This document shows, piece by piece, positions 50 through 37,517 of a stretch of 43,031 nucleotides of DNA. The notes beneath the pieces are model-generated. The model saw nothing but the letters and a program-made list of their open reading frames with translations, was not told the origin of the DNA and made no database searches. The DNA lies in assembly GCA_017435425.1 (NCBI GenBank), contig JAFSFC010000010.1, positions 1 through 43,031 on the forward strand, given 5' to 3'. The first letter of the stretch is position 1. Each line of letters begins with the position of its first letter. The stretch is from Ruminiclostridium sp. Lineage in GTDB: Bacteria; Bacillota; Clostridia; Oscillospirales; Oscillospiraceae. Both the position numbers and the translations under genes were made by a program.

Positions 50-603
50 TCTGCCAACCGCTGACATTCTCGGGCCCCCGCTAAAGCGGGATTTTTTTAT
101 GCCTTATCTACCTGCGCACCCGTAAACGGGTCAAAGTATTCTCGCAACCCAATCTGGTCACTCAGTGCATCTTCCTGCAACTGGTTGCGTACATATTCCG
201 CTATCTTCTTCTCGTTTTTGCCTACGGTATCCACATAGTACCCTCTGCACCAAAAGTGCCGGTTTCCATACTTGTACTTCAGATTTGCATGCCTATCAAA
301 TATCATCAGGCTACTCTTACCTTTCAGATAGCCTACTACATCCGACACTGCGTACTTCGGCGGTATCTCCACATACATATGGATGTGATCTTTGCATGCT
401 GTTGCTTCAATGATCGTTATACCTTTTCGCTTGCATAACTCTCGCAGGATTGCTCCTACATCTTGTTTTATCTGTCCATAAATGATTTGCCGACGATACT
501 TCGGGGTAAACACGATGTGGTACTTGCAATTTGCTCGGGTATGTGTTAGTGTCAATTTGTCCATTGAGACAACCTCCTTTTGCTGTTTGGTGCGGTTGGC
601 AGA
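50..603. repeat. 12-bp inverted repeat bracketing tnpA
   Basis: TCTGCCAACCGC at 50-61 is repeated exactly in reverse complement at 592-603, one copy on each side of the transposase gene. IS200-type elements do not normally rely on terminal inverted repeats, so this may be a long-range fold of the mRNA or single-stranded DNA that contributes to control of tnpA. The match is seen directly; its role is inferred. Confidence 0.5.
97..564 (-). CDS. tnpA: IS200/IS605-family transposase TnpA (Y1 HUH)
   Basis: This is a 155-residue Y1 transposase, the usual length for IS200 TnpA. The HUH metal-binding motif is visible as HIH in KDHIHMYVE, and the catalytic tyrosine is expected in the EYVRNQ helix near the C-terminus. 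The N-terminal YHIVFTPKYRR stretch is typical of the family. The enzyme cuts and rejoins single-stranded DNA at subterminal hairpins. The start is supported by an AAAGGAGG-type ribosome binding site just upstream (near 570-580). The frame is intact, so the gene could be active. Nothing links it functionally to its neighbours; it is a passenger next to the phage-like helicase. Confidence 0.95.
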   Translation of the reverse strand: MDKLTLTHTRANCKYHIVFTPKYRRQIIYGQIKQDVGAILRELCKRKGITIIEATACKDHIHMYVEIPPKYAVSDVVGYLKGKSSLMIFDRHANLKYKYGNRHFWCRGYYVDTVGKNEKKIAEYVRNQLQEDALSDQIGLREYFDPFTGAQVDKA

Positions 604-697
604 CCTACACTTAGCTTAGCATGGGAGGTTTTTCTCTGCATAGCCATTGGCTTTCCTGAACCACTCGCATAGCGAGTGGGTTTTTTACACCAAGAAA

Positions 698-727
698 AAG
701 TGTCCCCTCTTGTAGGGGACACTTCTT
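698..727 (-). terminator. Rho-independent terminator of the helicase gene
   Basis: AAGTGTCCCC at 698-707 pairs with GGGGACACTT at 715-724. Read on the minus strand, the hairpin follows the helicase stop codon by about ten bases and leads into a T-rich run (complement of the A run at 693-699). Confidence 0.75.
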
Positions 728-734
728 CCACATA

Positions 735-2507
735 TTAGATCTGTTTAGCCACGCACCAAGATGCATTTTTGGTGCCACCAACCAAGGTATAACCAAGGTT
801 AAACTCTCCAACCATTTCTCTTGCGGTAGGCATCTTGATGCCCTCCTTTTTTTCACGGCTGTCGTTTTTTCCACTGGGACCAAAAAGGGCCTCGTGGAAC
901 TCCTTGAGTCTACCGGTAAAGTCGTCTTTTTCCTCATCGCTTATTTCTTTTCCCAGCTGAGCCTCAAGGAACTCATTTACCTGTTCGAGAAGTTCCTCCT
1001 CACTGACAGGGCTCTGGGGAACAGGCACGTTCAGCCAACCGGCAACCTTGCTCACGAAAGGCGCCTTGACTCCATTTGCAAAGTCGGAACGAAGGTCTTC
1101 AAAAAAGTTACTCCTACGCTCGACATACTTCTCTGCAAACTCGTTTACGACAAGTTCACCACTTCCGAAATTCAGGTCCACCAAGTGACGTTCCTGAACA
1201 TCACCTGCATACCAAAGCCTCTGACGAATCATGTGCTGACGCTGATAATCACCCTTCGCACTATCGACCTGATTCACTAAGTTCACAAGCTTCTTATTGG
1301 CATTTTCCATTCTCGCCATCTGCTGAAGAGACAAGTCAGGAACATAGACAAAAATCTCTTCTCCGTCAGCCAACCGTTTCCGACCAACTTCTTGAATGAA
1401 TCGAGTACGCTCTGTGCTCATAATGACCAGATGCTTCACCGCAGGATCCCAAACATTGACACCACAATCGGCAACAGCTGTAGCGATAAGAACCCTGGTT
1501 TCAAACCGTTCGTTTAGAATCAGATTTTTCCAGGCAGGGCTATCTTTCATATCTGCATCAACATAAGAGACAAGGTTCTCTCCGTCCAACGCTTCTTCAA
1601 GCGCAGTTCTCAAGTCCTTTCCTTTCTCTTTTGATTCAACGAATATCACCCACTTTTCCTCATCAGGAGATTTTTTCACCACATCAATGATAGGCTCATA
1701 ATCCCTGTCTCTGACACTGTGAGGAAGAGGCACAAGCTTGATTCTCTTTTCTTTGCGGGAAAACTCGTAAATGCTAAACTCGCCAGGCTTTGCATATCGA
1801 GTCTTTTCTAACGAGCCAAAGGTATCCAATACAGGATACTGACTAAATAACGTCCCTAATTCAATGAATCTGCCTTTCAAAAGGGCGGTTTCAAGATCAG
1901 AAATCTTATCCCAAACTCCCCATTTGGTTGCAGTCATATAGATTCTGGTAACATCTTTAAACGCTCTGATTGCTCTTTTAAGGAGAGAATAAGTATTATC
2001 CGCGAACAAAGAATCAGAGAAAAAATAGTGGCATTCGTCAAAAACGACATACCCTATATTCATCTCTTTTACTTTATTCAAGCATGAATAAAGCCCTTGG
2101 TAGTTACAGAAATTAACATTGCCGATTCGATTGATATTCTGCATATCCAAGTAGTCAAAATCGATTCCCGACTTTCCACCGTGCATCTCAATCATGCTGC
2201 TTTTGAACTGATTTGCCAATCCTACACGATTGGTAACCACGAGAACATTTACTCCTCTTTCTTTCGCCAGCGGACAAACATGCCGCTTTACAAAAGTAGA
2301 TTTACCTGCACCGGTATCCGCATCAATTAACACCGGAGTATACATTGACCAGTACGGAAGCACTTCTGACAGCGCATCACATACATTAGAGTCCTTCATT
2401 ATTATAGGCCACTTCGGACTATCATCACGTTTCTTGCCTTTACCTCCGATGAGTACAACCCCTTGAGGGTTTTCAATGTTAGATTTATCCTTGTTTAAAT
2501 CACTCAT
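735..2507 (-). CDS. Superfamily 2 DEAD/DEAH-type helicase-like ATPase, phage/ICE type
   Basis: The protein has 590 residues from the preferred start. That start is preceded by GGAGG seven bases upstream; a start nine codons earlier has no such site. Superfamily 2 motifs appear in order: Walker A (DTGAGKST, near residues 64-71), motif II as VVFDECH, motif III as YMTATKWG, and motif VI as QEVGRKR. Proteins of this type use ATP hydrolysis to move along or unwind nucleic acid. Similar stand-alone helicases occur on phages and integrative elements of Firmicutes, which fits the nearby integrase. The C-terminal ~150 residues are charged and have no motif I recognise. It is transcribed away from the integrase. 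The specific role (element replication or defence) is not shown by the sequence. Confidence 0.8.
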   Translation of the reverse strand: MSDLNKDKSNIENPQGVVLIGGKGKKRDDSPKWPIIMKDSNVCDALSEVLPYWSMYTPVLIDADTGAGKSTFVKRHVCPLAKERGVNVLVVTNRVGLANQFKSSMIEMHGGKSGIDFDYLDMQNINRIGNVNFCNYQGLYSCLNKVKEMNIGYVVFDECHYFFSDSLFADNTYSLLKRAIRAFKDVTRIYMTATKWGVWDKISDLETALLKGRFIELGTLFSQYPVLDTFGSLEKTRYAKPGEFSIYEFSRKEKRIKLVPLPHSVRDRDYEPIIDVVKKSPDEEKWVIFVESKEKGKDLRTALEEALDGENLVSYVDADMKDSPAWKNLILNERFETRVLIATAVADCGVNVWDPAVKHLVIMSTERTRFIQEVGRKRLADGEEIFVYVPDLSLQQMARMENANKKLVNLVNQVDSAKGDYQRQHMIRQRLWYAGDVQERHLVDLNFGSGELVVNEFAEKYVERRSNFFEDLRSDFANGVKAPFVSKVAGWLNVPVPQSPVSEEELLEQVNEFLEAQLGKEISDEEKDDFTGRLKEFHEALFGPSGKNDSREKKEGIKMPTAREMVGEFNLGYTLVGGTKNASWCVAKQI

Positions 2508-3262
2508 AAGAAACCTCCAATCGTCTGATATCAATGTACGCTATACGTACAGTTGTATCTAACGGATTTATATTTACTAATATTTACTCTTTTAAATCTA
2601 AACCAATCGATCTATCAAATCGCCATATTATTCAATCTCAATTTGAATCGATTCATTTTTACGAAGCCCATCCTAGAACTGCGAGAGATGCAGATATTGC
2701 AATCCATTCAGTGGGACTCCTGCCTCATTGTATAGGTCTTGCACACTACTACAGTTTTGCAAATGCCATTTCATCACCTCCATTTTTCTTTTTATTTACT
2801 CATCAGCATTCCTCTTTGTCTCTCATCCTTACGACACCATGATAACAAGAGACTATAAAATAATAAACACCAAGTACAAAGAAATAGCATCATTAATTTT
2901 TGTTTTATCAGAAAAATAGGCACATCTTTTTTGCGCGCTAAACAAAATCAAGGACATAACAGCAATACAACCCACCAGCTATGTTATTTCGAACGGCACA
3001 TCACTCTTTTATTAAACCAGCATACGACTCAAACAACTGCACCAAACGGAGTCCTGTCCGTTTTGAATTAGATATTATAGATGTGAAGCTTACCAAGGAG
3101 TACACCTCGAAACCTTATCCCGACAAACGGACACCTATTGCAGGTGTCCGTTTCTTTGTTTCACTGGAGAATCTTTGAAACCTTTGGGTAAAAGCCAAAA
3201 CCATTCAGAACATCTTAATAAGCACATGCAACGTTGCACAATGCAACAGAAAGGAGTTTACC
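2508..3262. other. AT-rich intergenic region between helicase and integrase
   Basis: No convincing full gene is seen in about 750 bases. The minus strand at 2673-2774 could encode a 33-residue peptide (start MKWHLQN, end LHLSQF) beside a strong GGAGGTGATGAA site near 2775-2785. The spacing to that start is too short, while the well-spaced ATG gives only six codons. A hairpin with the stem AAACGGACACCT/AGGTGTCCGTTT lies at 3125-3153, followed by a T-rich run. The area probably holds the helicase promoter and perhaps integrase binding arms, but no repeat of the tRNA sequence found at 23.7 and 31.2 kb is present here. Confidence 0.5.
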
Positions 3263-4441
3263 ATGACAGGCAGTTTACAAGTAAAAAACAACAAGTACTA
3301 TGCCGTATTGAACTTCAGAGACGCCGACAAAAAGCGTGTCCAGAAATGGATCAACCTGAATCTCCCCGAAAAAGGAAACAAACGCAAAGCAGAGGCTAAG
3401 CTCAACGAACTGATCCAGCAGTACCAGGGCTACGAGGATATCGGCCCCACAAACATGCTCTTCTCCAAACATGTGGCCTCTTGGATTGAGACCAACAAAC
3501 CCCATGTGGTCAGGACCACCTACGACCAGTACGTCAACATGCTGAACAACCACATCGCACCATATTTTGATGCCAAGAGGATCACACTGAGTAAGCTGAC
3601 CCCAGGTGACCTGGAGGACTACTACTCCGTCAAGATCCAGTCCGGCCTCAGCCCCAACACCGTCATCAAGCATCACGCCGTGATACGTTCTGCGCTGCAG
3701 TGGGCCGTCAAGCATCGCTTCATCCGAGAGAACGTAGCTGACCTGGCGGATAGACCCACCAAGGTGAAATATCATGGTCCAGCCCCTTACTCCATCGAGG
3801 AAGTGGCTCAACTGCTCAATCTGACACAGAATGACCCGATCGCTGTCCCGATCTTCCTGGCCAGCTTCTACGGTCTTCGTCGGTCTGAACTTCTTGGTCT
3901 GAGATGGTCTGCCATCGATTTCGACACGGGGACCATCACCATCTCCACTACGGTGGTAAAGGAAAGTCATGGAACGAACACGCTGGTGGTGGTTCGCGAC
4001 AACATGACCAAGACAGAGACCAGCATGAGAACCCTTCCTCTCTGCCAGTACACCTACCATTATTTCCATACCTTGAAACAGCAGCAGATGCACAACCATG
4101 AGATCATGGGCTATGACTACGATACCCGCTACCTGGACTTCGTCTGTGTTGACTACCGGGGTACCCTCATCCAGCCCGACTATGTCACCCAGAAATTCCA
4201 AAAGCTTCTGAACCAGTATGGTCTTCGTCGTATCCGCTTCCATGACCTCAGACACAGCTGCGCCACCATCATGCTTTACCTGGGTTATACCATGAAGGAT
4301 ATCCAGACCTGGCTGGGACACAGCAATTACAACTTCACAGCAGACACCTACGTCCACTCCTCCCCTCAGTCCCATGTTGAGATGGCAGACACCTTATCTC
4401 AGAAGCTGAATGACCTGGCACCTATCTACCTTCCCGAATAA
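3263..4441 (+). CDS. int: Tyrosine recombinase/integrase
   Basis: This 392-residue site-specific recombinase belongs to the phage/Tn916-like integrase class and has the usual length. It shows an N-terminal arm-binding type segment, a SAM-like core-binding domain (about residues 65-165) and a C-terminal catalytic domain. The catalytic set is complete: R206 in GLRRSE, H327 and R330 in HDLRHSC, H353 in GHSNY, and nucleophile Y363 in TADTYVH. The start follows AGAAAGGAG with good spacing. The gene ends at a strong terminator. It would integrate and excise an element by strand exchange at short att sites. No att copies are recognisable next to it, so its own element may be decayed. The initiator-tRNA repeats at 23.7 and 31.2 kb are one possible target, but nothing in the sequence proves that. 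Confidence 0.93.
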   Translation: MTGSLQVKNNKYYAVLNFRDADKKRVQKWINLNLPEKGNKRKAEAKLNELIQQYQGYEDIGPTNMLFSKHVASWIETNKPHVVRTTYDQYVNMLNNHIAPYFDAKRITLSKLTPGDLEDYYSVKIQSGLSPNTVIKHHAVIRSALQWAVKHRFIRENVADLADRPTKVKYHGPAPYSIEEVAQLLNLTQNDPIAVPIFLASFYGLRRSELLGLRWSAIDFDTGTITISTTVVKESHGTNTLVVVRDNMTKTETSMRTLPLCQYTYHYFHTLKQQQMHNHEIMGYDYDTRYLDFVCVDYRGTLIQPDYVTQKFQKLLNQYGLRRIRFHDLRHSCATIMLYLGYTMKDIQTWLGHSNYNFTADTYVHSSPQSHVEMADTLSQKLNDLAPIYLPE

Positions 4442-6358: not shown

Positions 6359-7837
6359 CTATACTTTGGTTATCTCCAGAGACTTCCAAAGCTCAACCTT
6401 TCGTAGCATTACTTCCGGGATGTCATCCGCTCTGTATTCCTTCAGCAGTTCGGCTTCCTCAAGATACGAATGAATTACTTCTTTTTGTCTTCCATATTCA
6501 ATCGCTCTGTCAATAAACAAATATCTGGATTCCGTTGCGATCCCAGCCACAGCTTCGTTCACACTTTGAAGAATGGGATTTCTACACATCCGGGACAGTT
6601 GTGCATTGACGTTGTCTAATGCATGATAACACAACCTTGGCTCAATTTCTGGTGAGGATAATACATCTGCAAAATGCTCACATACTTCGCAATATTGAGT
6701 ACGCTCTTCCTTTGATGCGTTACAATTTGCCATATAAAGCACTGCATCCCTGATTTGTATCTTAAAATTCAAAAAGGAACTTGCATCCTGTGCAGATAGA
6801 ATCCGTCCATAGGCACGCAAATTAATAAACGGAGCAGGAATATTCGGTTCGGAACAAAGAAATGTCCCTTCCGGACGACGAATCTCTAAAAGGCCCAGAG
6901 CCTCAAGACACTTTGTAGCTTCGCGGATCACATTTCGACTCACATGATAGCGATCTATCATTTCTGGTTCCGTTGGGAACCTGGATCCCGGTTCATACTC
7001 TCCGTTAAATATAGCCAGTAATAACTCCCACATTATCCGTTTGGAAGAAGTACTACCTATAGTCTCCCAGAAATAACTGTTTCTTTGTGGTGTTGTAATC
7101 ATACGGCCATAAATCTCGATTTCTTCCTTAAATAGCTCCAATCGACTATATAAATAGTCTCCAAACCGTGCTTTCGCTCCAGAAGATACCGCAATCGCTT
7201 CCATTAATAGAACATCAGTCACTTTTTGAAGCAGCTGCGGAGAATAATCTTTCAATTCAACACAAAGAAAATATTGCGAAAAGATCAAATGGGAGAAAGA
7301 AATGATTCGTGCCAGAGGCAGTTGCCCAGACAATGAATCTCTCTGACGATCCAATCGGTCCATTCGTTTGTATAGTTCATTAGGGTCACAAATTGCTGGT
7401 GTTTCTAATTCTCTAGATATAGCACGGAGATCCCTAGAAAACTCTAAAACAGCATCAGAGTCAGCTTTGCTGGTGTTGAATACCATTTGTGCATGACGAA
7501 GAGCAAGAAAGTATTCTGCAGTGTGCATCACATCTGGCTGAAGGCGGTATAAATGCATAAACAAGGGAGCCAGAAGTTCAAATGTGCAGCTGTCCTGAAT
7601 GTAGGTTCCTTCTCCTCGTCGGATAACTACAAAACCATATGCTTCCAATACTTTGATTGCTTCACGCAAAGCATTACGCCCAACACCAAATTGCATAGTC
7701 AGCTCGGCCTCAGGCGGCAATTTAGAGCCCGGAAGCAGTCTTCCTTCTGCAATCGCTGTTGTAATTTGATGCACAATCGTAAAGGGAACGCGATCCCTAT
7801 TTAATGACGAAAAAAGAGGTGTCGTTTGACCTGCCAT
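6359..7837 (-). CDS. Tandem GntR-type transcriptional regulator (two winged-helix domains)
   Basis: The protein has 492 residues from an ATG preceded by GGAG. A longer reading frame upstream lacks a ribosome site and covers the operator-like sequence at 7857. It contains two GntR/FadR-like DNA-binding domains. The first is near residues 12-80 (LPPEAELTMQFGVGRNALRE, then RRGEGTYI). The second is near 262-325 (FPTEPEMIDRYHVSRNVIRE, then RRPEGTFL). Each is followed by a mostly helical region resembling an FCD-type effector domain. Ordinary GntR regulators have one such unit and about 240 residues, so this looks like a fused duplication. It is divergent to the DUF3237-reductase operon, and a perfect palindrome in that operon's promoter region is the likely binding site. 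Whether it represses or activates is unknown. Confidence 0.85.
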   Translation of the reverse strand: MAGQTTPLFSSLNRDRVPFTIVHQITTAIAEGRLLPGSKLPPEAELTMQFGVGRNALREAIKVLEAYGFVVIRRGEGTYIQDSCTFELLAPLFMHLYRLQPDVMHTAEYFLALRHAQMVFNTSKADSDAVLEFSRDLRAISRELETPAICDPNELYKRMDRLDRQRDSLSGQLPLARIISFSHLIFSQYFLCVELKDYSPQLLQKVTDVLLMEAIAVSSGAKARFGDYLYSRLELFKEEIEIYGRMITTPQRNSYFWETIGSTSSKRIMWELLLAIFNGEYEPGSRFPTEPEMIDRYHVSRNVIREATKCLEALGLLEIRRPEGTFLCSEPNIPAPFINLRAYGRILSAQDASSFLNFKIQIRDAVLYMANCNASKEERTQYCEVCEHFADVLSSPEIEPRLCYHALDNVNAQLSRMCRNPILQSVNEAVAGIATESRYLFIDRAIEYGRQKEVIHSYLEEAELLKEYRADDIPEVMLRKVELWKSLEITKV

Positions 7838-7856
7838 AAATACTCCATTCATTCTT

Positions 7857-7865
7857 ACGTAGGAT
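7857..7865. promoter_or_regulatory. Operator-like half-site upstream of the GntR gene
   Basis: ACGTAGGAT at 7857-7865 repeats the left arm of the palindrome at 8037-8054. It lies about 20 bases before the regulator's start codon, where binding would allow autoregulation. The match is short, so this is suggestive only. Confidence 0.4.
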
Positions 7866-7993
7866 GTGAAGATACATATTACTGTGTCTAAATCTTTATT
7901 ATATTTTACTATACAGATATCATTTTCGCAACTGTATTTCAGCAACAGCCTTTCCATTTTCACTGAATCGCAGAATAACAACTTCAAAAAGAC

Positions 7994-8022
7994 TTGACAA
8001 TTATTTCCCTCTGTGATATTAA
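7994..8022 (+). promoter_or_regulatory. Sigma-A promoter of the DUF3237-reductase operon
   Basis: A consensus TTGACA at 7994-7999 is followed after exactly 17 bases by TATTAA at 8017-8022. The predicted transcription start is near 8029, immediately before the palindromic operator. Confidence 0.75.
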
Positions 8023-8036
8023 TTAACCATGCTCCA

Positions 8037-8054
8037 ACGTAGGACATCCTACGT
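8037..8054. promoter_or_regulatory. Palindromic operator, likely GntR binding site
   Basis: ACGTAGGAcaTCCTACGT is a perfect inverted repeat with 8-base arms and a 2-base centre. It lies just downstream of the predicted transcription start and 35 bases before the DUF3237 start codon. Binding here would block transcription, so repression by the divergent GntR protein is the simplest model. The palindrome is seen; the pairing with this regulator is inferred from position and the half-site at 7857. Confidence 0.7.
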
Positions 8055-8088
8055 AATAGCCCAACCAAAAATGAAAGGATTTGAAATC

Positions 8089-8577
8089 ATGAGTGTTTCC
8101 TTAAAAAAGCAGTTTGAGGTTCGGTTAACCAATGTTCAGAGCGTTGTTTGTGGTCAGGATTATGATCATAATGGCCGCAGACAGCTGGTATACTGCCCTG
8201 AGGGTGAAATCATTGGTCCTGATTTTCATGGACACATCATGCCCGCTGGTATCGATCATCAGATCATTCGTCCCGATGGCACCTGCGAAGCAAGCATTGC
8301 TTATGGTTTCAAGCTGGATGATGGTCGTTCTATTTACATTCGAGCCGAGGGCATGAGACGCGTTCCCCCCGAGCTTGCTGAAACCGTTAAGTCTGGTGGA
8401 CCCGTGGATCCTAAGCTGTTCTATTTTGTTACCGTTCCTAAATTTGAAGTATATGACGAATCCCTGCGCTGGATGACGGAAAAGGTTTTCATCTGCGACG
8501 GAACTCGTTTACCTGATTCCGTCTTATTGACTTACTACTCCGTAGAACAAGTCAATGACCATCCTGCCTTAGGGTAA
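8089..8577 (+). CDS. DUF3237 family protein
   Basis: The product has 162 residues from the ATG following AAAGGA. An upstream in-frame ATG would lie before the operator and has no ribosome site. The sequence resembles DUF3237, a family of small, mostly beta-strand proteins of about 150 residues without an established reaction. The middle part (GPDFHGHIMPAGIDHQIIRPDG) is the typical conserved stretch of the family and is rich in His and Asp. There is no signal peptide or membrane segment, so it should be cytoplasmic. It is first in an operon with the flavin reductase (17-base gap), which suggests that it acts on the same substrate, for example by isomerising or binding it. That role is inference. 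Confidence 0.75.
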   Translation: MSVSLKKQFEVRLTNVQSVVCGQDYDHNGRRQLVYCPEGEIIGPDFHGHIMPAGIDHQIIRPDGTCEASIAYGFKLDDGRSIYIRAEGMRRVPPELAETVKSGGPVDPKLFYFVTVPKFEVYDESLRWMTEKVFICDGTRLPDSVLLTYYSVEQVNDHPALG

Positions 8578-8594: not shown

Positions 8595-10574
8595 TTGAGT
8601 CAAAAGTATAATTATCTCTTCACACCACTAAAAATCGGTAGTGTCACTGTAAAAAATCGATTTTGTGCCGGCCCTTTAACCCTTCCTTCCGTTTTTGGAC
8701 CTTTCGGAGAATTCAGTCCTAACGGGATTGAGTATTTTGAAGCACGCGCCAGAGGCGGATTTGGTCTGATTTTTACCGGAGCAATGCATCCGGATGTACA
8801 TGTTGATCCCATCCATCCCTACGACAGCAAGCAGCCACTAAAATCTCCTGCTGCATTCAAACGTTCTGCAATAGAGCTTCTGGAAAGAACTGAGGCATAT
8901 GGATGCAAGATTTTTCCTCAAGTATCTATGGGATATGGCAGAAATTCCATTGGATGTTTTGCTCCATCTGAAATCCCGTATTATTATGACCCTAGCCGTA
9001 AGGCTCCCGCTTTAACAAAAAGTCAAATTAAAATCAAGATCCACCAGATGGTTTCCACAGCGTCTCTGCTAAAGCAGTGTGGTTTCCCCGGTATGGAAGT
9101 TCATGCCATGCATTGGGGATATCTCATTGATCAATTTGCCATGTCCTTTATGAATTCCAGAAATGATGAATACGGCGGAGAACTAGAAAATCGACTCCGT
9201 GTATCTAGAGAAATCATAGAAGGAATCAAACAGGAATGCGGACAGGACTTTGCTGTTTCTATGCGTTTGGCACTGAAATCTTACATCAAGGATTATAATA
9301 CGCCTTCCCTTTCCGGCCAGGAAGAAGCTGGACGGACCCTTGCAGAAGGCCTCGCTATTGCAAAAAGACTGGAAGAGTACGGCTATGACTGTCTGAGTGT
9401 AGACTTCGGCCAATATGACTCTTTCTATTATGCCGCCCCTCCCTGTTACATGGAAAAAGGTCGCATACTTACATTAGCAGAAAAGGCTAAGAAGGTCGTC
9501 AATATTCCTATCCTGTGCGGAGGCCGTATGAATGACCCTGATTTGGCTTCTGATGCTGTTTCCAGCGGAAAGATCGACGCTATCGTCCTCGCACGCCCCT
9601 CTTTAGCTGACCCTGATTACCCAATAAAGGTACAAACAGGCTGCCCCGAAGAAATTCGCCCCTGTATTGCCTGTAATCAAGGCTGTATCGGTGCCCTCAA
9701 GCAGGGCAAGCGGGCAGGATGTGCAGTAAACGCCCAGGCTGCACGAGAGGGTACGTTTGGATTGACCCCAGCACTAAAAAAGAAGAGTATTTTAATTATC
9801 GGGGGTGGTGTTGCCGGAATGGAAGCTGCAAGAGTTTCTGCCCTGCGCGGTCATTCTGTTTCCTTGTGGGAGAAATCCGATGTTTTGGGCGGCAGTTTAC
9901 GTCCTGCTGGCGCTCATGAATTTAAGCAGGAGATGAACGACCTAAATAACTGGTATATCAGACAGTTAAAGAAATTAGAGGTCACCGTTCATCTCCAGAA
10001 GAATGCCTCTTCCAAGGATATTCTGGAAGCCAAGCCCGATACCGTTATTATGGCAGTTGGTGCCGAGCCTACCCTTCCCCCTATTCCCGGTATCGACCAT
10101 TCCAACGTGTTTGACTGTGTAACTGCTCTCTCTGGAAACAGTATTCCCGGCCAAACTGTTGTTGTCATCGGCGGCGGACTGGTAGGATGTGAAATTGCAC
10201 TTGGCCTTGCTCAAGAAGGAAAACAGGTCACAATTATCGAATTCCTGCCAGATATTCTCTCTGGTAGCGGTTTTGTGCCCGAACAAAACGAACAGATGAT
10301 GCGTGACCTACTGAATGATTTGGATGTGAGGCTAAAGACCGGATATCGAGTGAAGGAAATTTTTGATCAGGCAGTTGTCTGCAGCAAAGATTCTCTGGAT
10401 ATCCAGATACCAGCAGAAAGTGTGATCATCGCTGCTGGTTTTCATCCCAGGAACTCTATGTCTGCTGAAATTATCGAACACGGTATCCCTGTCTATGAAA
10501 TTGGAGATGGAAAAAGAGTCAGCAATGTCATGACTGCAATCAGCGATGCATACACTGTAGCAAGATCAATTTGA
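8595..10574 (+). CDS. Old-yellow-enzyme family NADH:flavin oxidoreductase (dienoyl-CoA reductase/BaiCD-like)
   Basis: This 659-residue enzyme uses a TTG start preceded by AGGAAG. The N-terminal half (about 1-370) is an FMN-binding TIM barrel of the old-yellow-enzyme type. Its active-site histidines lie in HAMHWGYLIDQF (H170 and H173), followed by NSRNDEYGGELENR. Four cysteines in CIACNQGC and the later GCAVN hold a [4Fe-4S] cluster. The C-terminal half has two Rossmann glycine motifs (IIGGGVAGMEAA for FAD, VIGGGLVGCEIA for NADH). The architecture matches 2,4-dienoyl-CoA reductase, enoate reductase and BaiCD, which pass electrons from NADH through FAD and Fe-S to FMN to reduce or form an activated C=C bond. 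The spacing HxxHWGY differs from the commoner HxxHGY and resembles the BaiCD branch. The substrate is unknown. The gene is the last of its operon, before a strong terminator. Confidence 0.9.
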   Translation: MSQKYNYLFTPLKIGSVTVKNRFCAGPLTLPSVFGPFGEFSPNGIEYFEARARGGFGLIFTGAMHPDVHVDPIHPYDSKQPLKSPAAFKRSAIELLERTEAYGCKIFPQVSMGYGRNSIGCFAPSEIPYYYDPSRKAPALTKSQIKIKIHQMVSTASLLKQCGFPGMEVHAMHWGYLIDQFAMSFMNSRNDEYGGELENRLRVSREIIEGIKQECGQDFAVSMRLALKSYIKDYNTPSLSGQEEAGRTLAEGLAIAKRLEEYGYDCLSVDFGQYDSFYYAAPPCYMEKGRILTLAEKAKKVVNIPILCGGRMNDPDLASDAVSSGKIDAIVLARPSLADPDYPIKVQTGCPEEIRPCIACNQGCIGALKQGKRAGCAVNAQAAREGTFGLTPALKKKSILIIGGGVAGMEAARVSALRGHSVSLWEKSDVLGGSLRPAGAHEFKQEMNDLNNWYIRQLKKLEVTVHLQKNASSKDILEAKPDTVIMAVGAEPTLPPIPGIDHSNVFDCVTALSGNSIPGQTVVVIGGGLVGCEIALGLAQEGKQVTIIEFLPDILSGSGFVPEQNEQMMRDLLNDLDVRLKTGYRVKEIFDQAVVCSKDSLDIQIPAESVIIAAGFHPRNSMSAEIIEHGIPVYEIGDGKRVSNVMTAISDAYTVARSI

Positions 10575-10787: not shown

Positions 10788-11993
10788 ATGAACTGCCGAG
10801 ATATCCTGACACTTCAATATGCAAACCAGTTTCGTTTACGTGCCGGAGACAAGGGTCTTGGAAACGAAATCAGTTGGGTACACTTTCTCGAGTCTGTCGA
10901 ATATATTGACTGGCTCAGAGGCAGTGAACTCATTATCACAACGGGACTATGCACGGGGTCTAATCCAGAAGCACTATGTAAAATGGCTGAAAAGCTAATG
11001 GAGAAAGGAGCCTCTGGTTTTGTTGTTACCCTCAATAAGGACCTCCCCGAGATTCCCGAAAAACTCATTGCATATTGTAACAGTATGGATTTTCCCCTGT
11101 ACGAAGCTCCTTATAGCACACGAATCGTAGATGTCAGCAAGAGTATCTGCACCTCCATTGTTCACCAGCAAAAGCGCTCGGACGAGCGGGAAAGCCTGTT
11201 ATTGGAACTCATCCACGGCGTTAGATTGTCTGATAAACGTCTCCAAAAACTAAATGCAATTGGCTTTACCTCAGATAAAACATGGCGGCTCATCTGTATT
11301 CAGATTCATTTCCAAGAAAAAGGCCAGAAAATCACGGAACCAGATACTCCTTTTTATCATGAAAAATTATCTGATGATTACGTGATTCGAGTCAAAAAAT
11401 TCATCCAAAGATTTCTCCAGCGAAAAGGTCGTACTGAAATTCTCTTCACAGAGGAAGAAAACATCTTCTGGCTGACAGAGGAACTACCCGATTCAAATCT
11501 TTCCGACTACTTGAATGATGCCCTATATAACGTTAAAGTCAGTTATCCCGGCATTGCAATCCATGCGGGCGTCAGTGGTACATTTTCAGACGTGAAAAAT
11601 CTTCGCACTGCAGTGAACCACGCCATCGACACTCTAAGAATGAGCAATCAGAAACACGAAAAAATATCCGTGTGCTATTATGATGATATGTTGGAGTTCC
11701 GACTGTTTCGCAGTGTCTCCTCTTCTAAAACATTGGAAGAAATGTCGTCGCGTATGCTCAAAGAACTTCTACTTCCGGAAAATTCCGAACTTTTAACAAC
11801 TCTGACGGTATATCTGGATTGTGACTGCAGCGCCAAACGGACTGCAGAAGCTATGTTCCTACACAGCAATACTCTCCACTACCGTATTCATAAAATTGAA
11901 AATATCCTGCATCGCAGTCTGAAGAAAAATGAAGATCTATTTAGTGTAATGCTTGCGGTACGAATGTACAACTATCTTCAGAATCAATCATAA
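10788..11993 (+). CDS. PucR-family transcriptional regulator
   Basis: The product has 401 residues and starts after a GGAGG-type site. The N-terminal ~120 residues match the PucR sensory domain (EISWVHFLESVEYIDWLRGSELIITTG). A middle region of the GGDEF-like/CdaR type follows. The C-terminal ~65 residues form the HTH_30 domain (CSAKRTAEAMFLHSNTLHYRIHKIENI). PucR/CdaR proteins are usually activators of a neighbouring catabolic operon that respond to a pathway metabolite. Only 64 bases without a terminator separate this gene from the first split GRE gene, so it most likely controls the GRE locus and may be cotranscribed with it. The ligand is not predictable. Confidence 0.88.
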   Translation: MNCRDILTLQYANQFRLRAGDKGLGNEISWVHFLESVEYIDWLRGSELIITTGLCTGSNPEALCKMAEKLMEKGASGFVVTLNKDLPEIPEKLIAYCNSMDFPLYEAPYSTRIVDVSKSICTSIVHQQKRSDERESLLLELIHGVRLSDKRLQKLNAIGFTSDKTWRLICIQIHFQEKGQKITEPDTPFYHEKLSDDYVIRVKKFIQRFLQRKGRTEILFTEEENIFWLTEELPDSNLSDYLNDALYNVKVSYPGIAIHAGVSGTFSDVKNLRTAVNHAIDTLRMSNQKHEKISVCYYDDMLEFRLFRSVSSSKTLEEMSSRMLKELLLPENSELLTTLTVYLDCDCSAKRTAEAMFLHSNTLHYRIHKIENILHRSLKKNEDLFSVMLAVRMYNYLQNQS

Positions 11994-12057: not shown

Positions 12058-14313
12058 ATGTCTTCTAGCATGATGGGTACCACGGCTTTGGGCCAGAACT
12101 TACGAGCTGGCACAATTGCCAAATTAGGAAGTACAAAACGAATTCAAGAACTGAACGGTATGCTTCACGGCAACCGGCCAAATATTGATATTACCCGCGC
12201 AAGGGTATACACTCAGGTTTATCGGGAAACTGAAGGTATGCCCAACATTACTCGGCGTTACCGTGCTGCCGCTGCAGTCTACCGGGCAATGAGTGATACA
12301 ATCTACGACCACGAGCAGTTGGTCGGTTGGCCCACGAAGCGAATTCGTGGAGCAAGTTTTGCCATCGAAATGCATGCTCATTGGATGGCAGAAGATCTTC
12401 CCGAGGTACGCAACCGCGTGTACGCACCGTTTGAAATAACTGATGAAGATTACGAAGAACTGGAAACAGACCTAATCCCTTACTGGAAAAATAAAACCAT
12501 GGCCGTACAGTGGGGCTATCACGTCAGCAATTATGAATGGAACCGTGCACAATTCGGTGGTATCTCTGATGTCTCCAATTATCTTTGCACCAATGGTTCT
12601 CATTTCATTCCCCGCTGGACTGACCTGCTTGAACATGGCTTCGTAAAGTATTACGAAGAAGCCAAATCTCTATTGGCTGCTTTGGATCCTAACGATCCTG
12701 CTTCCATCGACAAGCGCATTTTTTACAACGGTATTATTGAAGTTTTGGAAGGAATCCGCAACTGGGGAGAGCGTCTCTCCGCCTCCTGCAGCCGTAAGGC
12801 AGCCGTCGAAAAAGATTCTGTCCGCAAGCAGGAACTGGAAAACATGGCTGATATGATGAAACGAGTTCCTTGGGGACCTGCTACCTCCTTCTATGATGCC
12901 ATGGAAACCGTGTGGGCAGCCTGTTTCTTCCTGTTTGTGGAAGGCGCAGGACCCTCTGTCACATGGGGCCGCATGGATCAGTACCTGTATCCATACTATA
13001 AAGCAGATATTGAAAAGGGTATCTTAACCCCTGAAGGTGCTCTGGAACTCATTGAAGAGTTATATATCCGAGTCAATACCAACGAATGGTTCCAGTCTTC
13101 TCAAATGGCGTATATTTTTGGCGGCTACTATCGCTATCCTCATAACGATGTCGGCGGTTTGGATGAAAACGGCCAGGATGCAACCAATGAACTGTCCTAC
13201 CTTTTCCTGCGCGCTATGCGCTATGTTCGTACTACAGCCCCTAACCTGTCTGTGCTGATCCATCAGAAAACACCGGATTCTCTGTTACGCGAAGCCTGTG
13301 AACTTGCAGCAGAAGGCATGGGACACCCTTCCTTCTTCAATGTAGAGGGTCTATATGCCATGCTGAAGCACCGTGCTGCTGGGCCTGATGGATATTCCAA
13401 TTATACTCGGAAGGAAATAATGAAGTTTGGTTCTCCTATTGGCTGTGTTGAACCAGGTGTTGAGGGCAAACAGTACGGCCATACGGATGCCGGTATCATC
13501 AACGTTGCTGGCGCCGCCCTTATGGCTGTAACAAATGGTGTCATGCCAATCGAATCCGACAATATCTTTTCCGGTAAAGTAATTACTTTTGAATCCGGAG
13601 TGCCTAACTCATTCAAAACGTTTGAACAATTCTATGATGCTGTAAAATCTCAGATCAAGTATGCTGTAGAAGAGTGTCATTCTAACCTGATCATCTGCGA
13701 AAAATTACTTGCCGAGCAGTTTAACCTTCCCACATTTACCATTTTGCTGGATGGAGCACTAGAAAAAGCCGTCGATGCAACAGCCGGAAGTGCCAAAGTA
13801 AATATCGGCCCTACAATTCAGATGGTTGGTTTTGCTACCATGGCAGATTCCGTGGCCGCAGTCAAAAAGGTTGTTTTTGATGATCAAGAAGCATCCCTAC
13901 AGGATGTCTGTGATGCCTGTATGAATAACTTCAAAGGATATGAAGTGCTTCGTGCAAAACTAATTGCTGCTCCCAAATTTGGAAACGATGATGACTATGT
14001 TGATACCATCGCTTCCGACCTTTGGAACTGGTTCTCCAAATGCGTTACAAAACTCAAAATGTACCGCGGAAACTACTGTGACGCCGCCATTCAAATGGTT
14101 GCAAACGTAGGATACGGCTCCCTGCTTGGTGCGACACCAGACGGTCGACTGTCTGGCATGCCCGTCTCTGACACTATGTCCGCAAGTCCCAACGCAGATC
14201 GCAGCGGACCCGCCGCTGCAGCACGCAGCTACAGCAAACTGGACTATGGTGCCTATGCAAATGGTACTATGCTGAATATGTGGATCACCCAGAGCGAAAT
14301 GGTAACCGTTTGA
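12058..14313 (+). CDS. Glycyl radical enzyme large subunit, copy A, lacking the glycyl-radical domain
   Basis: This 751-residue protein matches the PFL-like ten-strand barrel of glycyl radical enzymes. The active-site loop is intact at GSPIGCVEPGVEG, with thiyl-forming C463 and E465. The C-x-E pattern occurs in GREs that eliminate water or another leaving group, or that decarboxylate, rather than in pyruvate formate-lyase (CC). The protein ends at NGTMLNMWITQSEMVTV, exactly where a normal GRE would continue into the C-terminal glycyl loop. RVAGY is absent, so it cannot hold the stable radical itself. That domain is encoded 33 bases downstream in the same frame, behind two in-frame stops (TGA, TAA) and a new ribosome site. 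It is roughly 85% identical by eye to copy B, but its codons are more AT-rich and less biased. The specific reaction is unknown. Confidence 0.92.
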   Translation: MSSSMMGTTALGQNLRAGTIAKLGSTKRIQELNGMLHGNRPNIDITRARVYTQVYRETEGMPNITRRYRAAAAVYRAMSDTIYDHEQLVGWPTKRIRGASFAIEMHAHWMAEDLPEVRNRVYAPFEITDEDYEELETDLIPYWKNKTMAVQWGYHVSNYEWNRAQFGGISDVSNYLCTNGSHFIPRWTDLLEHGFVKYYEEAKSLLAALDPNDPASIDKRIFYNGIIEVLEGIRNWGERLSASCSRKAAVEKDSVRKQELENMADMMKRVPWGPATSFYDAMETVWAACFFLFVEGAGPSVTWGRMDQYLYPYYKADIEKGILTPEGALELIEELYIRVNTNEWFQSSQMAYIFGGYYRYPHNDVGGLDENGQDATNELSYLFLRAMRYVRTTAPNLSVLIHQKTPDSLLREACELAAEGMGHPSFFNVEGLYAMLKHRAAGPDGYSNYTRKEIMKFGSPIGCVEPGVEGKQYGHTDAGIINVAGAALMAVTNGVMPIESDNIFSGKVITFESGVPNSFKTFEQFYDAVKSQIKYAVEECHSNLIICEKLLAEQFNLPTFTILLDGALEKAVDATAGSAKVNIGPTIQMVGFATMADSVAAVKKVVFDDQEASLQDVCDACMNNFKGYEVLRAKLIAAPKFGNDDDYVDTIASDLWNWFSKCVTKLKMYRGNYCDAAIQMVANVGYGSLLGATPDGRLSGMPVSDTMSASPNADRSGPAAAARSYSKLDYGAYANGTMLNMWITQSEMVTV

Positions 14314-14346
14314 TCTTTTGATTTATGTCTCAGAAAGGAGTAAACT

Positions 14347-14652
14347 ATGGCTGATATAATTACAATTCGTGACATCCCTCTCAATTGCCCTGATGCTACC
14401 TATGTTCAGCCCGAGTATAAGGAAGCTGGCATGAATAACTTCACAAACTTAGTCCGTACTATGCTGAATGACTATGGTGTATACCACGTTCAGTTCAATA
14501 CGATCAGCAAGGATACCCTGATTGACGCAAAAGCTCATCCGGAAAAGTATCCCACTTTGATTGTGCGTGTCGCTGGCTACAGCGTTTATTGGACTGACCT
14601 GGCCGAGCGCGTTCAGGACGATATTATCAGCCGTACGGAACATGTTTTCTGA
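14347..14652 (+). CDS. Stand-alone glycyl-radical subunit, copy A
   Basis: This 101-residue protein corresponds to the C-terminal glycyl-radical domain of GREs. It has the VYHVQFNTIS and HPEKYP segments, then IVRVAGYSVYWTDL with radical-bearing G77, and the terminal DDIISRTEH. It starts at its own ATG after AGAAAGGAG. The first ~25 residues (IRDIPLNCPDATYVQPEY) do not correspond to the usual GRE linker and may dock the domain to the large subunit. The closest known concept is the E. coli GrcA (YfiD) spare part for damaged pyruvate formate-lyase. Here, however, the partner lacks the domain altogether, so the small protein should be obligatory. It would be activated by the radical-SAM enzyme at 19138 and would then form the thiyl radical on C463 of the large subunit. 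Confidence 0.92.
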   Translation: MADIITIRDIPLNCPDATYVQPEYKEAGMNNFTNLVRTMLNDYGVYHVQFNTISKDTLIDAKAHPEKYPTLIVRVAGYSVYWTDLAERVQDDIISRTEHVF

Positions 14653-15189: not shown

Positions 15190-15711
15190 TTGAAACGAGT
15201 AGTTGTGTACGAATCTCAGACAGGATCTACAAAGCAATATGCAGAATGGATTGCACGCCAAATAGACGCTCAATTGATTGCTTTGAACGAGTGTACAGCT
15301 TCCATATTGCAGCAAGCTGATTTGATTGTCTTTGGTGGCAGTGTTCATGGCGGCAGCATCAATGGAAAACGCAAGTTCTCCAAGATTGCAAAGAAAGCAA
15401 CCGCCAACAATTTGATTTACTTCGGTGTTGGAATTCGTCCCTCAACCCCCAGAACTCTCGAATTGATTAGAAACAGTAACTTTGATTCTAATTCGAATGT
15501 TCCCCTTTTTTACTTCCGAGGAAAATTCGATCCTGATGCCCTCAATCAAAGTGATAAAACTATGATCCGAATCTATCAATCTATGCTAAAGCGCCGCAGA
15601 GATATTCACCAGGAAGATGTTGAGCTTCTGGATACCATGCGTTATCCCTGCGACTTTATATCAGAGGAGCAAATCGATCCTTTGGTTCAAGAAATCAGAA
15701 ACCGCATCTAA
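15190..15711 (+). CDS. Flavodoxin-domain protein
   Basis: The product has 173 residues from a TTG start behind GAGGTGAG. The N-terminus VVVYESQTGSTKQYAEWIA is the FMN phosphate-binding loop of flavodoxin-like folds. The GGSVHGGSINGKRKFSK stretch resembles the HemG-like or 'flavodoxin domain' branch and not classical long-chain flavodoxins. The protein is cytoplasmic. In E. coli, reduced flavodoxin supplies the electron that lets a radical-SAM activase cleave SAM and activate pyruvate formate-lyase. A flavodoxin-like gene inside a GRE/activase locus could do the same job here; this is inferred from context. An alternative is general electron transfer to the flavin reductase upstream. It is probably the first gene of the unit running through DUF1097 and GRE copy B. 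Confidence 0.8.
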   Translation: MKRVVVYESQTGSTKQYAEWIARQIDAQLIALNECTASILQQADLIVFGGSVHGGSINGKRKFSKIAKKATANNLIYFGVGIRPSTPRTLELIRNSNFDSNSNVPLFYFRGKFDPDALNQSDKTMIRIYQSMLKRRRDIHQEDVELLDTMRYPCDFISEEQIDPLVQEIRNRI

Positions 15712-15788: not shown

Positions 15789-16391
15789 ATGAATAAGAGA
15801 GGTTTGGTAAACTGGTCCATCTGGATCGGTGTTGTCTCTGGCATATACTGTGCCATCTATCTTTTAACAATCGGCGATCTAACGAGCACCCGCTTCCTTC
15901 CTGGGTACCAAATTGTTTACGCGACCTTCACGGCACTGCCCATCTACTTTACTGCAGGCGCTAAACGAGAAGAATTCTTCCAGTACATTGGTAGTTACCT
16001 GGTCGGCGTCGTATGGGCAATGATCTACCTGGTTCTGATGGATCGTCTGGCTCTAACCGGCATACCCGCCTGGGCCAATATCGCAATCATTGTGGCCATC
16101 GTGTGTATTGTGGAATGTGCTATTCATTTCTGTCTCCCCGCATCTCTTCCCTTCAACAAAGTCCCTGCCCACTTCGGTGCTATCTCCAACTGCTTCTGGT
16201 GCTCCAACATGACCATCGCCATTCTGGGTACCGCAGGTGCATCCTCTGTTGGTGGTTTCTACAACTTTACTGCTTTCCCCATCCTCGCACTTACCCTGTG
16301 CACTGGCACTCTGCTTGGCCTGATCTGCAATGAAGGTCTGAACTTCATCGATGCAGAAACCGGAAAGTGGAAACTGCCTGGCAAAAAGTAA
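15789..16391 (+). CDS. DUF1097 family inner-membrane protein
   Basis: The product has 200 residues from the ATG after a GTGAGG site. A longer reading frame begins 19 codons earlier but lacks a ribosome site. Five or six hydrophobic helices are visible, beginning with WSIWIGVVSGIYCAIYLLTI and including IAIIVAIVCIVECAIHF. The sequence fits DUF1097, a family of small membrane proteins of unknown function that includes E. coli YcdZ. Its place between the flavodoxin and GRE copy B suggests a role in moving a substrate or product across the membrane, but no transport motif proves this. Codon usage is GC-richer than in the flavodoxin and similar to GRE copy B. Confidence 0.7.
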   Translation: MNKRGLVNWSIWIGVVSGIYCAIYLLTIGDLTSTRFLPGYQIVYATFTALPIYFTAGAKREEFFQYIGSYLVGVVWAMIYLVLMDRLALTGIPAWANIAIIVAIVCIVECAIHFCLPASLPFNKVPAHFGAISNCFWCSNMTIAILGTAGASSVGGFYNFTAFPILALTLCTGTLLGLICNEGLNFIDAETGKWKLPGKK

Positions 16392-23761: not shown

Positions 23762-24292
23762 AAATCGCTTGATATAGGTACTCATCCAAATCGACCAAAA
23801 TCTGTGCCATTGGAATTTGTTTTTTCCTTTTGGAACAGTATATTCGTTTTAACACCCCGTCTTAGACGCAATCCTAGTTGGGGTCAAATTGGGGGCAATA
23901 TGTAGCCACTTTCATACATAAACAATTGTAATCTCTGTTTCGAATTCCTCTCCCATCGAAATCGGACTAAAGTCAAACTTCGATTCCTTACTGCAATGTT
24001 ACGTTAACAGCATACAAAACGAAGTAGATATTGTTCCACAACTCCCAGAATCTACTCTTGAGCCCCTTGTTCCCCAAAAAACATTCGAATTATTGGATTC
24101 TCTGCATCGGTAAAAATTCACCACAAAGCAAAAATTGCCTCGTCCATTGGAAATATCTCCATGGATGAGGCTTTCTTTTTTCGCCAACGTTTTATTCTTG
24201 TTCCATATGGACATCTCACATACAATGTGCTAAACTTATGTCAATACATTCCGGTAATATTCGGCATCTTGCACAGAATAGGAGGAGATCAC
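23762..24292. other. Region before the RHS/SLH gene, with possible gene remnant and terminator
   Basis: The plus strand at 23922-24113 is open for 63 codons ending in TAA (visible parts include NFDSLLQCYVNSIQNEVDI and KTFELLDSLHR). It reads like the end of a protein gene but has no start or ribosome site, so it may be a remnant. A hairpin GCCTCGTCCAT/ATGGATGAGGC at 24137-24171 with a T-rich tail follows, as a terminator would. The word GAAATCGCTTGATA occurs both at 23761-23774, right at the repeat junction, and at 24297-24310, inside the start of the RHS/SLH gene. No promoter is clear. Confidence 0.4.
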
Positions 24293-27200
24293 ATGCGAAA
24301 TCGCTTGATAGCCACGTTGCTTACCCTATCCATGCTTCTATCCATCCTTCCACCTACAGCTTTTGCCGCAGAGGAAGGCCCCAACATCACCATCGATGAT
24401 AAACTGGTGGTAGAGGATGGCAAGGCCATCGAATCACTTCCCGCTGGTGTTGATTACACCAGAGGCACTCTAACCTTGGACAAAGCCTCCCTGATCAATC
24501 TACATATTCACGGAGGCGATGACGTGACCATCGTCCTGCGGGGTGAGTCCACCGTCCAGGATGACGGAACCATTGTAGACGAAGACGGCAACCTACGGGA
24601 GCCCGTTATGCTGGGCAACACCACCGTCACCATTAAGGGTCCAGGCAGTCTGATTGCCACTGCTTCTTCTTCCGAGGGCCGAGCCTTTGTGGCAGACTAC
24701 ACCGACCTGACTATCACCGATGGCGCCACGGTCACTGCCCAGGTCATCGAAGATAAAGCGGAACACCACGGATCCTTCGAGTCTGTCTCCGGCAGCCTGA
24801 CCGTGGAGGGTGGCGCCACCCTGAACGTCCTCGGACTGGGTGGCCTTGGACTGACCGAAAACGGCACCGGATCCGGCTCCCTGGCCTATAGCTTCAAGGA
24901 CTGCACCATCAATGCAAACTGTCTCTGGATGACCTCTGACCTGGAAGACAAAACACACCAGGTCACCGTTGGACCGGATGCAGTGTTAAACTTATCTGCA
25001 AAGAAAAACATCGACGCTGACACCGCTGGCAATGTTCTGCAAATTTTGGACGGCAGCCACTTCATTCTGGATGGTGGTCAAGTGACCATTGATACCACTG
25101 AAGCCTCCAACGGGGATCAGGCTGCAGTTTTGATCCAGGGTAAAAACTCTCTGCTTGATCTACGCAGCGGCTCCTTTGATGCCGATATTGCCGGTTCCCA
25201 CAGTATCCAACTCGATGACAACGCCGCTCTCATTCAGACCGGCGGTACTTTGTCTGCCCAAGTAAGTGGAAGCAGCTATGCTCTGCTGGTAAGCAACGGC
25301 AATGTCACCCTGAAGGGCGGTTCTACCGGTTTTACCGGAGGCTATGGTGTGCTGCTGGAATCCCGCCTTGATTCCAGTTCCATGACTATCAACGGAGGCT
25401 TCGCCAACATCACCAGCACCAAGGGTGATACTCTGTCCATCCGATCCGGCGGCAAGTTTACGATGTTAGACGGCTCTGTCACGCTGGAAAGTTCTTCCGG
25501 ACTGCCTCTGTATTGCGAGGGCGGTTCCACCAATCTGTTGGGCGGTGCTGTCTATCTGGAAAATGCCAACGGGCATATCGCATTGTCTGCCAAGAGCAAA
25601 GACCAAGTCATCATCGGCAGCGGAATGTATGTTCTGGACAATAATACCGGCAAGGAAATTACCATGACCGGCAACAAGGAAGGCCAATTCCTCAGCCCCT
25701 CTGTCACCATATCCGGTGAGAAGAGCCTTGGGGCATACGATTGCGACCTGAGCATCCCCAGTGGTCAGATCACCCAGGGTGCTCGGTTTACCGTTCGTGC
25801 CATCGTGTCTCTGGGCGCACCCAAAGGCGAGGTTACCTTTGCCCTGCCTGCCGGTGTCTCCTATGTGCCGGGAAGTCTGACCGTGGATAGCCGCTCGGTC
25901 TCTCCCACCAGCACAGATCCTCTCACCGTTCCTCTCCAGGAAGGTGGAACCATCCGTTTCAGCGCCATTGCCCGTGACTCCGGCGGAAAGGACCTGACCG
26001 CTGTCACCACCGCAGGAAACCAGAAGTATCAGGAGAAACTGAACTTTGATGTCAGCGCCTTCAACCTGTCTCTGCCCAGCCGTACCTGCCGACTGGAACT
26101 CCCCGTGTCCGGTTCCGCTGTCCCCAACGGCTCTATCGTCTTCTATGAAGGCACTCGTTCCCTAGGCAGAGCATCGGTCAACGCCCTGGGCACCTGGTCC
26201 GGAACCGTCACCCTGCCCGAAGTGGAAGGAGAGCACACCGTTCACGCTGTTCTTACCCTGATGGATGGCTCCACCATCCGCAGTGAGGATCATATCGTCA
26301 CCTACGAGCCCGAAGCCGACGAAGTAAAGACCCTCACCATCACCAACTATATCCATGGACGTACCGACCTGGATCCCCCCATCGAAGAGACCCTGGTCAT
26401 TGACTATGTAAACGGCGAGGACAGCTCTGATTATTATTCCTTCTGGCCTGACCTTCCTACCCTCTCTTTCCGGGTTGACTTTGTAAAGGATTCCTCTGCC
26501 CAAAGTCAGGTCACCGTGGTCACCACCAACCGGAATGGCCAGGAGACCAAGGTTCCCCTCCGCTACAAGGCCGCTGAAGATGCCTGGTTCGGCTCTTACG
26601 ATTTTGATGACGAGAGTGTGCCCTACAAGTTCCGGGTGGAATATGTCTCCGGCACGCCCTCTGAAGGAATCGAACTGGAAGGTGAATTTGCCTATGATGA
26701 AAACGGCAATCTCATTCGAGGCGTTTATGACGATGGCGTTGTTTACTTTTATACCTATGACTCCAACAACAAACTGAAGCAGGCTTCCAGCGGTGACTTT
26801 ACATATTACTATGATAAGCAGTCCCGCATTGCAAAAGCTGAAAACTCTAACGGCATTATTGCTACTTTAGACTATGACAACAGCGGGAACATCAAAAAAA
26901 TCTCCTTCAACGAGGAAGATCCTCTAATTTACACCTACAACAAAGACGGAAAGACCACAAAAGTAACCCAAGGTAAAAATACATATCACTTCAATGACAA
27001 TCAGCAAGTCATTTCTATCATTAATAAAGACGGGACAACGACAATTTCGTACAATGCGGATGGATGTATCTCCAAGGTCACTTACCCTGATGGCACCTAT
27101 TCTCAGTATTCCTATGACAGCAACAGACAGATGAGTAGCGTAACCGACGGTACAAACACCTATTATTTCCGTTATAATGGAGATATGACTTTCATGCGGG

Positions 27201-32690: not shown

Positions 32691-32703
32691 GGAGGGAGAA
32701 ACC

Positions 32704-36288: not shown

Positions 36289-36298
36289 GGAGGACCAC

Positions 36299-37456: not shown

Positions 37457-37517
37457 CTGCACCCGACAGACGAATGTATGCACCCCCAATATTCATGAAT
37501 ATTTATTCATTTATCTC

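Follow-up and report, generated by a model that had tools for sequence, protein, structure and literature searches.

A 43,031-nucleotide stretch of Ruminiclostridium sp. (assembly GCA_017435425.1, contig JAFSFC010000010.1, positions 1 to 43,031 of the forward strand; hereafter the window, meaning the whole stretch) encodes a glycyl radical enzyme (GRE) in two pieces: the catalytic cysteine lies on a large chain and the radical-loop glycine on a second protein of about 100 residues. On the strength of comparative sequence analysis and a structure model, we consider it highly probable that the two chains assemble into one two-subunit GRE. The superfamily is already known by its fold and residues; the novelty is the radical subunit as a separate, conserved gene product.

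The gene boundary lies within the glycyl radical domain

The window holds two tandem large/small pairs followed by one radical-SAM activase (Table 1). A first-pass annotation, made from the letters and open reading frames (ORFs) of the window, had described the first pair as a large protein with GCVEP (C463) that ends near NGTMLNMW and a separate 101-residue protein carrying RVAGYS, with its own ATG and AGAAAGGAG site. The ORFs bear out both descriptions, the large chain terminating nine residues past NGTMLNMW; the second complete pair and the activase were absent from that account.

The superfamily features that we looked for are all present, distributed over two chains. The PFL-like ten-stranded barrel (PF02901) and the catalytic cysteine in the central loop are found in the large chain, and the RVxGY-loop glycine with its C-terminal helix is found in the small one; a dedicated radical-SAM activase scoring above its cut-off lies nearby.

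In Pfam, large chain copy 1 matches PF02901 only, while its small partner matches PF01228 (Gly_radical) from position 48 to 105 of 106. The second large chain ends in a weak match (25.1 bits) to the first half of PF01228 that overruns the stop. Across the 15 genomes reached via related loci we counted 17 split-type large frames, one of them (G697) a 337-residue piece at a contig edge, and 17 small half-domains. Gly_radical positions 48/49 to 105/106 lie in the small frame in all 15 genomes, and positions 2 to 46-60 lie at the large-frame end in 13, where the matches are weak (20.7-26.4 bits, three under the cut-off). The boundary between the large and the small gene passes through the Gly_radical domain.

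A second, unrecognized glycyl loop in the large chain would have overturned the first-pass reading. None was seen in the best 120 of 616 large homologues, which are 717-755 residues long and carry no precomputed Gly_radical domain; GCVEP is present in 119 of them. A protein search with the small chain, which admits proteins of about 55-177 residues only, returned 134 proteins at E<=0.001, and R[VI]AGYS is present in 108 of the 120 listed (67-159 residues). P0224, among these, is a fragment of a fused protein. In two others (P0135 and P0176) a short stretch is internally duplicated.

The split is conserved

Searching public genomes with the small protein yielded 16 loci, and in 15 of them a stand-alone small ORF lies directly 3' of a split-type large ORF, one of which (L014) is truncated by a contig end. 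The first-pass annotation had proposed a genome search of this kind, for large subunits lacking RVAG beside a ~100-residue RVAGY protein. The sixteenth (L019) holds a fused enzyme that is only distantly related. The loci come from Evtepia, Ruminiclostridium, Clostridium viride, a Lachnospiraceae metagenome-assembled genome (MAG), Vagococcus acidifermentans, unclassified Bacillota, Clostridiales and Eubacteriales MAGs, and Collinsella ihumii, which we take to belong to a phylum other than that of the remaining loci; four are from isolates. Because the pair arrangement is kept in 15 of 16 loci, a sequencing slip or chance is excluded.

Junctions were measured in 16 pairs, the two of the window and 14 of the loci, leaving aside L014 and the second pair of L013. 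The gap between large and small gene is 17-60 bases, with a GGAG-type site 5' of the small ATG. The large genes end in TAA, TGA or TAG, and the small gene stands in frame 0 relative to the large in nine pairs, frame 1 in three and frame 2 in four. Between the two small genes of the window the nonsynonymous rate (dN) is 0.018 and the synonymous rate (dS) about 1.35, a dN/dS of about 0.013 that is imprecise at 98 codons; dS of the large pair is saturated and yields no value. The small gene is under purifying selection.

These measurements bear on two ways of explaining the split away. One, which the first-pass annotation had itself named, is a recent gene break (by frameshift, insertion or stop) or assembly error without function. 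Junction breaks do happen, as in the G495 split described below, known here from one genome and with a fused enzyme (G707) as the nearest relative found; and the large and small genes of copy 1 share a frame. The 16 pairs, with their own ribosome-binding sites, three stop codons and three relative frames, speak against it, as do selection on the small gene and the 134 small homologues, and we give it practically no credence. Conservation of the split refutes a functionless break as a general account. The other is a single polypeptide made by stop-codon read-through or frameshifting, which would suit the in-frame pairs and the existence of fused relatives. Seven of 16 pairs are nevertheless out of frame, with both alternative frames represented; the stop codons vary, copy 1 carries two in-frame stops, and a start and a ribosome-binding site of its own were present for every small gene examined, so that this explanation is extremely improbable.

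Fused relatives and distribution

The split chains fall into a single clade (100/100) in trees built on the large part, and this clade includes two natural fusions, P0242 and P0243. In both, the large end is followed by a linker of ~20 residues and then by the N-terminal arm (TPxxTYxxPxYK) and radical domain shared with the split proteins. Depending on the tree, they stand beside subclade B or in an unresolved basal fork. The first-pass annotation had counted fused homologues elsewhere, together with a recent functionless break here, as grounds for abandoning a two-component enzyme; such fusions do exist, but what they support is the partnership of large and small chain. The next fused group (P0244, P0246, P0247 and P0248; 773-820 residues) has a short junction and no arm, and the other fused enzymes tested, including the glycerol dehydratase-like L102, fall outside the split clade.

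Holding the split rows together was not rejected in the approximately unbiased test (p-AU 0.132 for the large part, with five of 14 fused rows trimmed C-terminally by motif, nine left whole and columns less than 30% filled dropped; 0.238 for the small domain). The trees are compatible with a single split followed by re-fusion and with more than one split. The second subclade meets the first in L013, which carries pairs of both with one activase between; its second small subunit (L013:9024-9308) has the loop RTSGYS in place of RVAGYS.

A survey of the order (limits 1e-60 and 1e-10; up to three candidates per genome scored) found split-type matches in the window's own genome only, one of 295. 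A survey of the phylum (limits 1e-110 and 1e-22) found matches of this family in two of 398, the same genome and G537, whose split genes appear identical to those of Vagococcus L012. The split family is rare and patchy, in Bacillota and Collinsella. The left flank of the window (97-4441) encodes an IS200-like transposase (97-564, minus strand), a helicase/ResIII protein (735-2534, minus strand) and a tyrosine integrase (3263-4441, plus strand). This mobile-looking flank, together with the patchy distribution, suggests horizontal transfer.

The order survey also gave at least 18 other Gly_radical matches in open frames of 81-99 residues (e.g. G106:C86, G080:C51 and G020:C14). These are possibly of GrcA2/GrcA3 type, and further split enzymes could be hidden among them.

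Is the small protein a spare part?

GrcA proteins are stand-alone glycyl radical proteins, and GrcA acts in trans on pyruvate formate-lyase (PFL; PMC8683613). The small protein of the window might then be a spare part of the GrcA/YfiD type, repairing an enzyme cut by oxygen, the large chain being an unrelated or degraded enzyme. It does match the GrcA3, GrcA2 and GrcA models, at 74, 63 and 48 bits, far under the cut-offs of 158, 145 and 170. The adjacent large chain has no glycyl loop of its own to be repaired, and the two genes are neighbours in 15 of 16 loci. In five of 15 genomes (those of L004, L006, L008, L009 and L016, assembly completeness not given) the split chain is the only PFL-like match, which argues against a spare part; the window's own genome has one further PFL-like enzyme, a fused one (C3, 800-residue frame). 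We regard the spare-part explanation as very unlikely. The spare-part, pseudogene and read-through candidates were set aside on sub-cut-off scores, conservation and mixed frames.

The likeness to the GrcA/YfiD system is nonetheless close. With oxygen-cleaved (cPFL) or truncated PFL (tPFL), a small glycyl radical protein likewise supplies strand beta-10, the glycyl loop and the C-terminal helix in trans (6owr; PMC8683613). In that system the large enzyme is synthesized complete and the small protein serves for repair; the large gene of the window lacks the coding sequence for that part, and the small gene lies next to it. The same sources have the YfiD N-terminus disordered; the small chain of the window instead has a conserved arm, modelled at block pLDDT (predicted local distance difference test) 80-91.

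Predicted complex and mechanism

A read-through model of large plus small chain reached pLDDT 90 and a predicted template modelling score (pTM) of 0.92, and it superposes on whole choline lyase across 787 of 791 residues. A first structure model was poor at 674-768 and served as a control only. The complex and the position of the loop within it are predictions from this modelling. The two-component GRE put forward in the first-pass annotation gains support from the conserved split, the selection on the small gene and the lack of a second loop.

In the mechanism that we propose, the small subunit would complete the barrel with its last strand and contribute the glycyl loop and C-terminal helix, docked on the large chain by its conserved N-terminal arm (TYxxPxYKEAG). 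A hydrogen of Gly77 in the small subunit would be abstracted by the radical-SAM activase encoded nearby. The glycyl loop would then swing into the barrel, where Gly77 could oxidize Cys463 across the protein interface, and the resulting thiyl radical would start a dehydratase-type elimination aided by H182, E465 and D477. Radical formation on the small chain, and the exchangeability of that chain, are our inference.

Several points weigh against the two-subunit enzyme. The AlphaFold2 model joins the two proteins into one chain by a short artificial linker rather than predicting a multimer, and AlphaFold2 has seen fused relatives. The binding of YfiD to tPFL is too weak for isothermal titration calorimetry, and activation of tPFL is 32-fold below that of cPFL (PMC8683613); a working split therefore needs extra docking, which is here a prediction. 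The existence of fused sisters (P0242 and P0243) shows that separation of the chains is not chemically essential. The canonical loop is lacking in 12 of the 120 small homologues listed, mostly truncated or chimeric-looking, although two (P0179, RVAGHS, and P0199, RVAGDS) retain the glycine. Large copy 1 evolves faster than copy 2 (end branch 0.17-0.19 vs 0.015-0.017), and may therefore differ from it in function.

Oxygen destroys GREs at the radical glycine, and the whole large chain is then normally wasted. A bolder reading, which we find conceivable but rather doubtful, is of an obligate two-subunit GRE whose radical sits on a separately made, replaceable 11-kDa cartridge, which would be lost after an oxygen cut, exchanged for a freshly activated one and shared by the two catalytic subunits of one operon; a detachable radical domain would then be a recurrent design (G495).

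Active site and substrate

Active-site residues were aligned to glycerol dehydratase 1r8w via L102, which matches 1r8w at 1196 bits and is 33.5% identical to the window's large chain. We take the 1r8w residues compared, and the roles given to them, to be those of the active site. N156, H164, S282, C433, E435 and D447 of 1r8w correspond to N174, H182, S300, C463, E465 and D477 of the window, and H281 to Pro299, so that six of seven compared positions are kept. All seven columns are invariant in 17 aligned split chains; the two fused sisters have Glu at the D477 position. Since these residues match glycerol dehydratase, the alignment points to a dehydratase-type elimination as the predicted reaction.

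Genes next to other split pairs encode a phosphobutyryltransferase (L016, same cluster in L017), a butyrate kinase (L016, same cluster in L018), an acylating-type aldehyde dehydrogenase (L017) and lactonase-like proteins (L008, L009 and L011). Neighbours vary between loci and single out no one pathway; as a rule one member per cluster was scanned, with longest-ORF gene calls among which many antisense ORFs look spurious.

A diol-like substrate is our tentative suggestion, held at slightly less than an even chance, and a route from diol to aldehyde to acyl phosphate fits some of these neighbours. A two-subunit enzyme acting on something other than a diol, such as a quaternary amine, a hydroxy acid or the substrate of another GCVEP-type elimination, has a comparable chance, also just short of even, and would leave the two-subunit reading intact. 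The best equivalog score is that for CutC (TIGR04394, 466 bits), though under its cut-off of 1050, and the BaiCD-like flavoenzyme, lactonase-like and nitroreductase-like neighbours fit a simple diol pathway poorly. On the other hand, six residues match glycerol dehydratase, while in CutC the position of D477 is occupied by Ser, and the phosphobutyryltransferase, butyrate kinase and aldehyde dehydrogenase fit the diol to acyl phosphate route.

Comparison with known enzymes

The B12-independent glycerol/1,2-propanediol dehydratases (1r8w, 5i2g and 9rco) share the fold and the catalytic Cys, Glu, Asp, His, Asn and Ser with the window enzyme. They are single chains with an attached glycyl domain, whereas the window enzyme is split, has Pro for H281, and belongs to its own clade, with L102 outside; it scores 438 bits with the dehydratase family model TIGR01774, short of the cut-off of 678. 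Among PDB sequences CutC (choline trimethylamine-lyase) comes closest, and by structure it ranks with the nearest matches; it too is a single chain, and residues after its Cys loop differ. Benzylsuccinate synthase, the MasD complex and HPAD have extra small subunits beside the catalytic chain, as here. Those small subunits are iron-sulphur or accessory parts. The catalytic chain of these enzymes is matched by both the large and the small chain of the window, and thus holds both parts.

We saw no split GRE among solved structures by sequence or structure matches, where a missing match is no proof, and found no description of one in open-licence PMC articles, so that a subscription or preprint report is possible. 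Split GREs can be overlooked by annotation that expects both domains on one chain, because the small homologues listed are mostly unnamed, two are annotated as hypothetical protein and several are named as the whole enzyme. If the two-subunit reading is true, a radical on the small subunit would make it possible to study the activase separately from the enzyme and to combine wild-type with mutant radical subunits, and would offer a ready-made scaffold for repairable radical catalysts.

A second split junction

The phylum survey also gave a 110-residue Gly_radical frame in a distant GRE of genome G495 (L120/L128), which is divided at the same junction as the enzyme of the window. Its large frame has 765 residues, carries GCAEAG and ends shortly after LYNLKFNPKDL; a ~90-base spacer with a purine-rich site follows, and then an 86-residue small protein with RVAGYS. 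The Gly_radical matches in this genome, which is listed as 100% complete, are the two halves only (positions 2-49 and 42-106). The large chain shares 28.5% identity with its counterpart in the window and 66% with the fused relative G707 (505 aligned residues, the G707 locus being partial), and among 38 genomes of its order six matched the small protein, G495 itself and five with fused enzymes. For these reasons the junction is, judging by sequence identity, one cut separately from that of the window family; it is represented by one genome and lacks the conserved arm. The new tail of the large chain, the spacer, and the purine-rich site preceding the ATG of the small gene led us to reject L120 as a frameshifted fused enzyme. 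Beside the G495 enzyme lie an activase and ABC-transporter-like genes.

Locus layout and other features

Table 1. Features of the split GRE locus, in window coordinates
Feature	Positions	Strand	Evidence
DUF3237 protein	8089..8577	+	recurrent neighbour; same cluster in L004, L016
Old-yellow-enzyme/BaiCD-like flavoenzyme	8595..10574	+	recurrent neighbour: L013, L016, L018
PucR-family protein, upstream of first pair	10788..11993	+	profile match
Large (catalytic) subunit copy 1, 751 residues	12058..14313	+	PF02901 5.6e-157; GCVEP, no RVAGY; barrel PFL-like without last strand and glycyl loop
Catalytic Cys463 codon (GCVEP)	13444..13446	+	sequence; aligned with Cys433 of glycerol dehydratase 1r8w
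Ribosome-binding site AGAAAGGAG of small gene copy 1	14332..14340	+	sequence; GGAG-type sites in other pairs
Small (glycyl radical) subunit copy 1, 101 residues	14347..14652	+	PF01228 positions 48-105/106, 4.7e-19
Predicted radical Gly77 codon (RVAGYS)	14575..14577	+	sequence; aligned with RVAGY glycine of solved enzymes
Flavodoxin-domain protein	15190..15711	+	PF12724 7.8e-17; same cluster in L016
Membrane protein, weak DUF1097 match	15789..16391	+	also adjoins pair in L016, L018
Large subunit copy 2, 752 residues	16447..18705	+	84% identity with copy 1
Small subunit copy 2, 98 residues	18758..19054	+	96% identity with copy 1
Radical-SAM GRE activase, 320 residues	19138..20100	+	TIGR02494 302 bits, cut-off 174

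The activase is the only one seen in the cluster, and presumably serves both pairs. The flavodoxin-domain protein is a possible electron donor of the activase, the membrane protein a possible transporter and the PucR-family protein a possible regulator.

Elsewhere in the window, a single ORF at 6359-8068 (minus strand) has two GntR-type winged-helix matches, an unusual tandem regulator, and a 2074-residue protein at 24161-30385 combines RHS/YD repeats with three S-layer homology domains. The region 32674-41490 encodes a 2-oxoacid:ferredoxin oxidoreductase, a CoA-transferase III, an aminotransferase, a DcuC-family carrier and, by ORF reading, an amino-acid ABC transporter; it is likely an amino-acid fermentation cluster.
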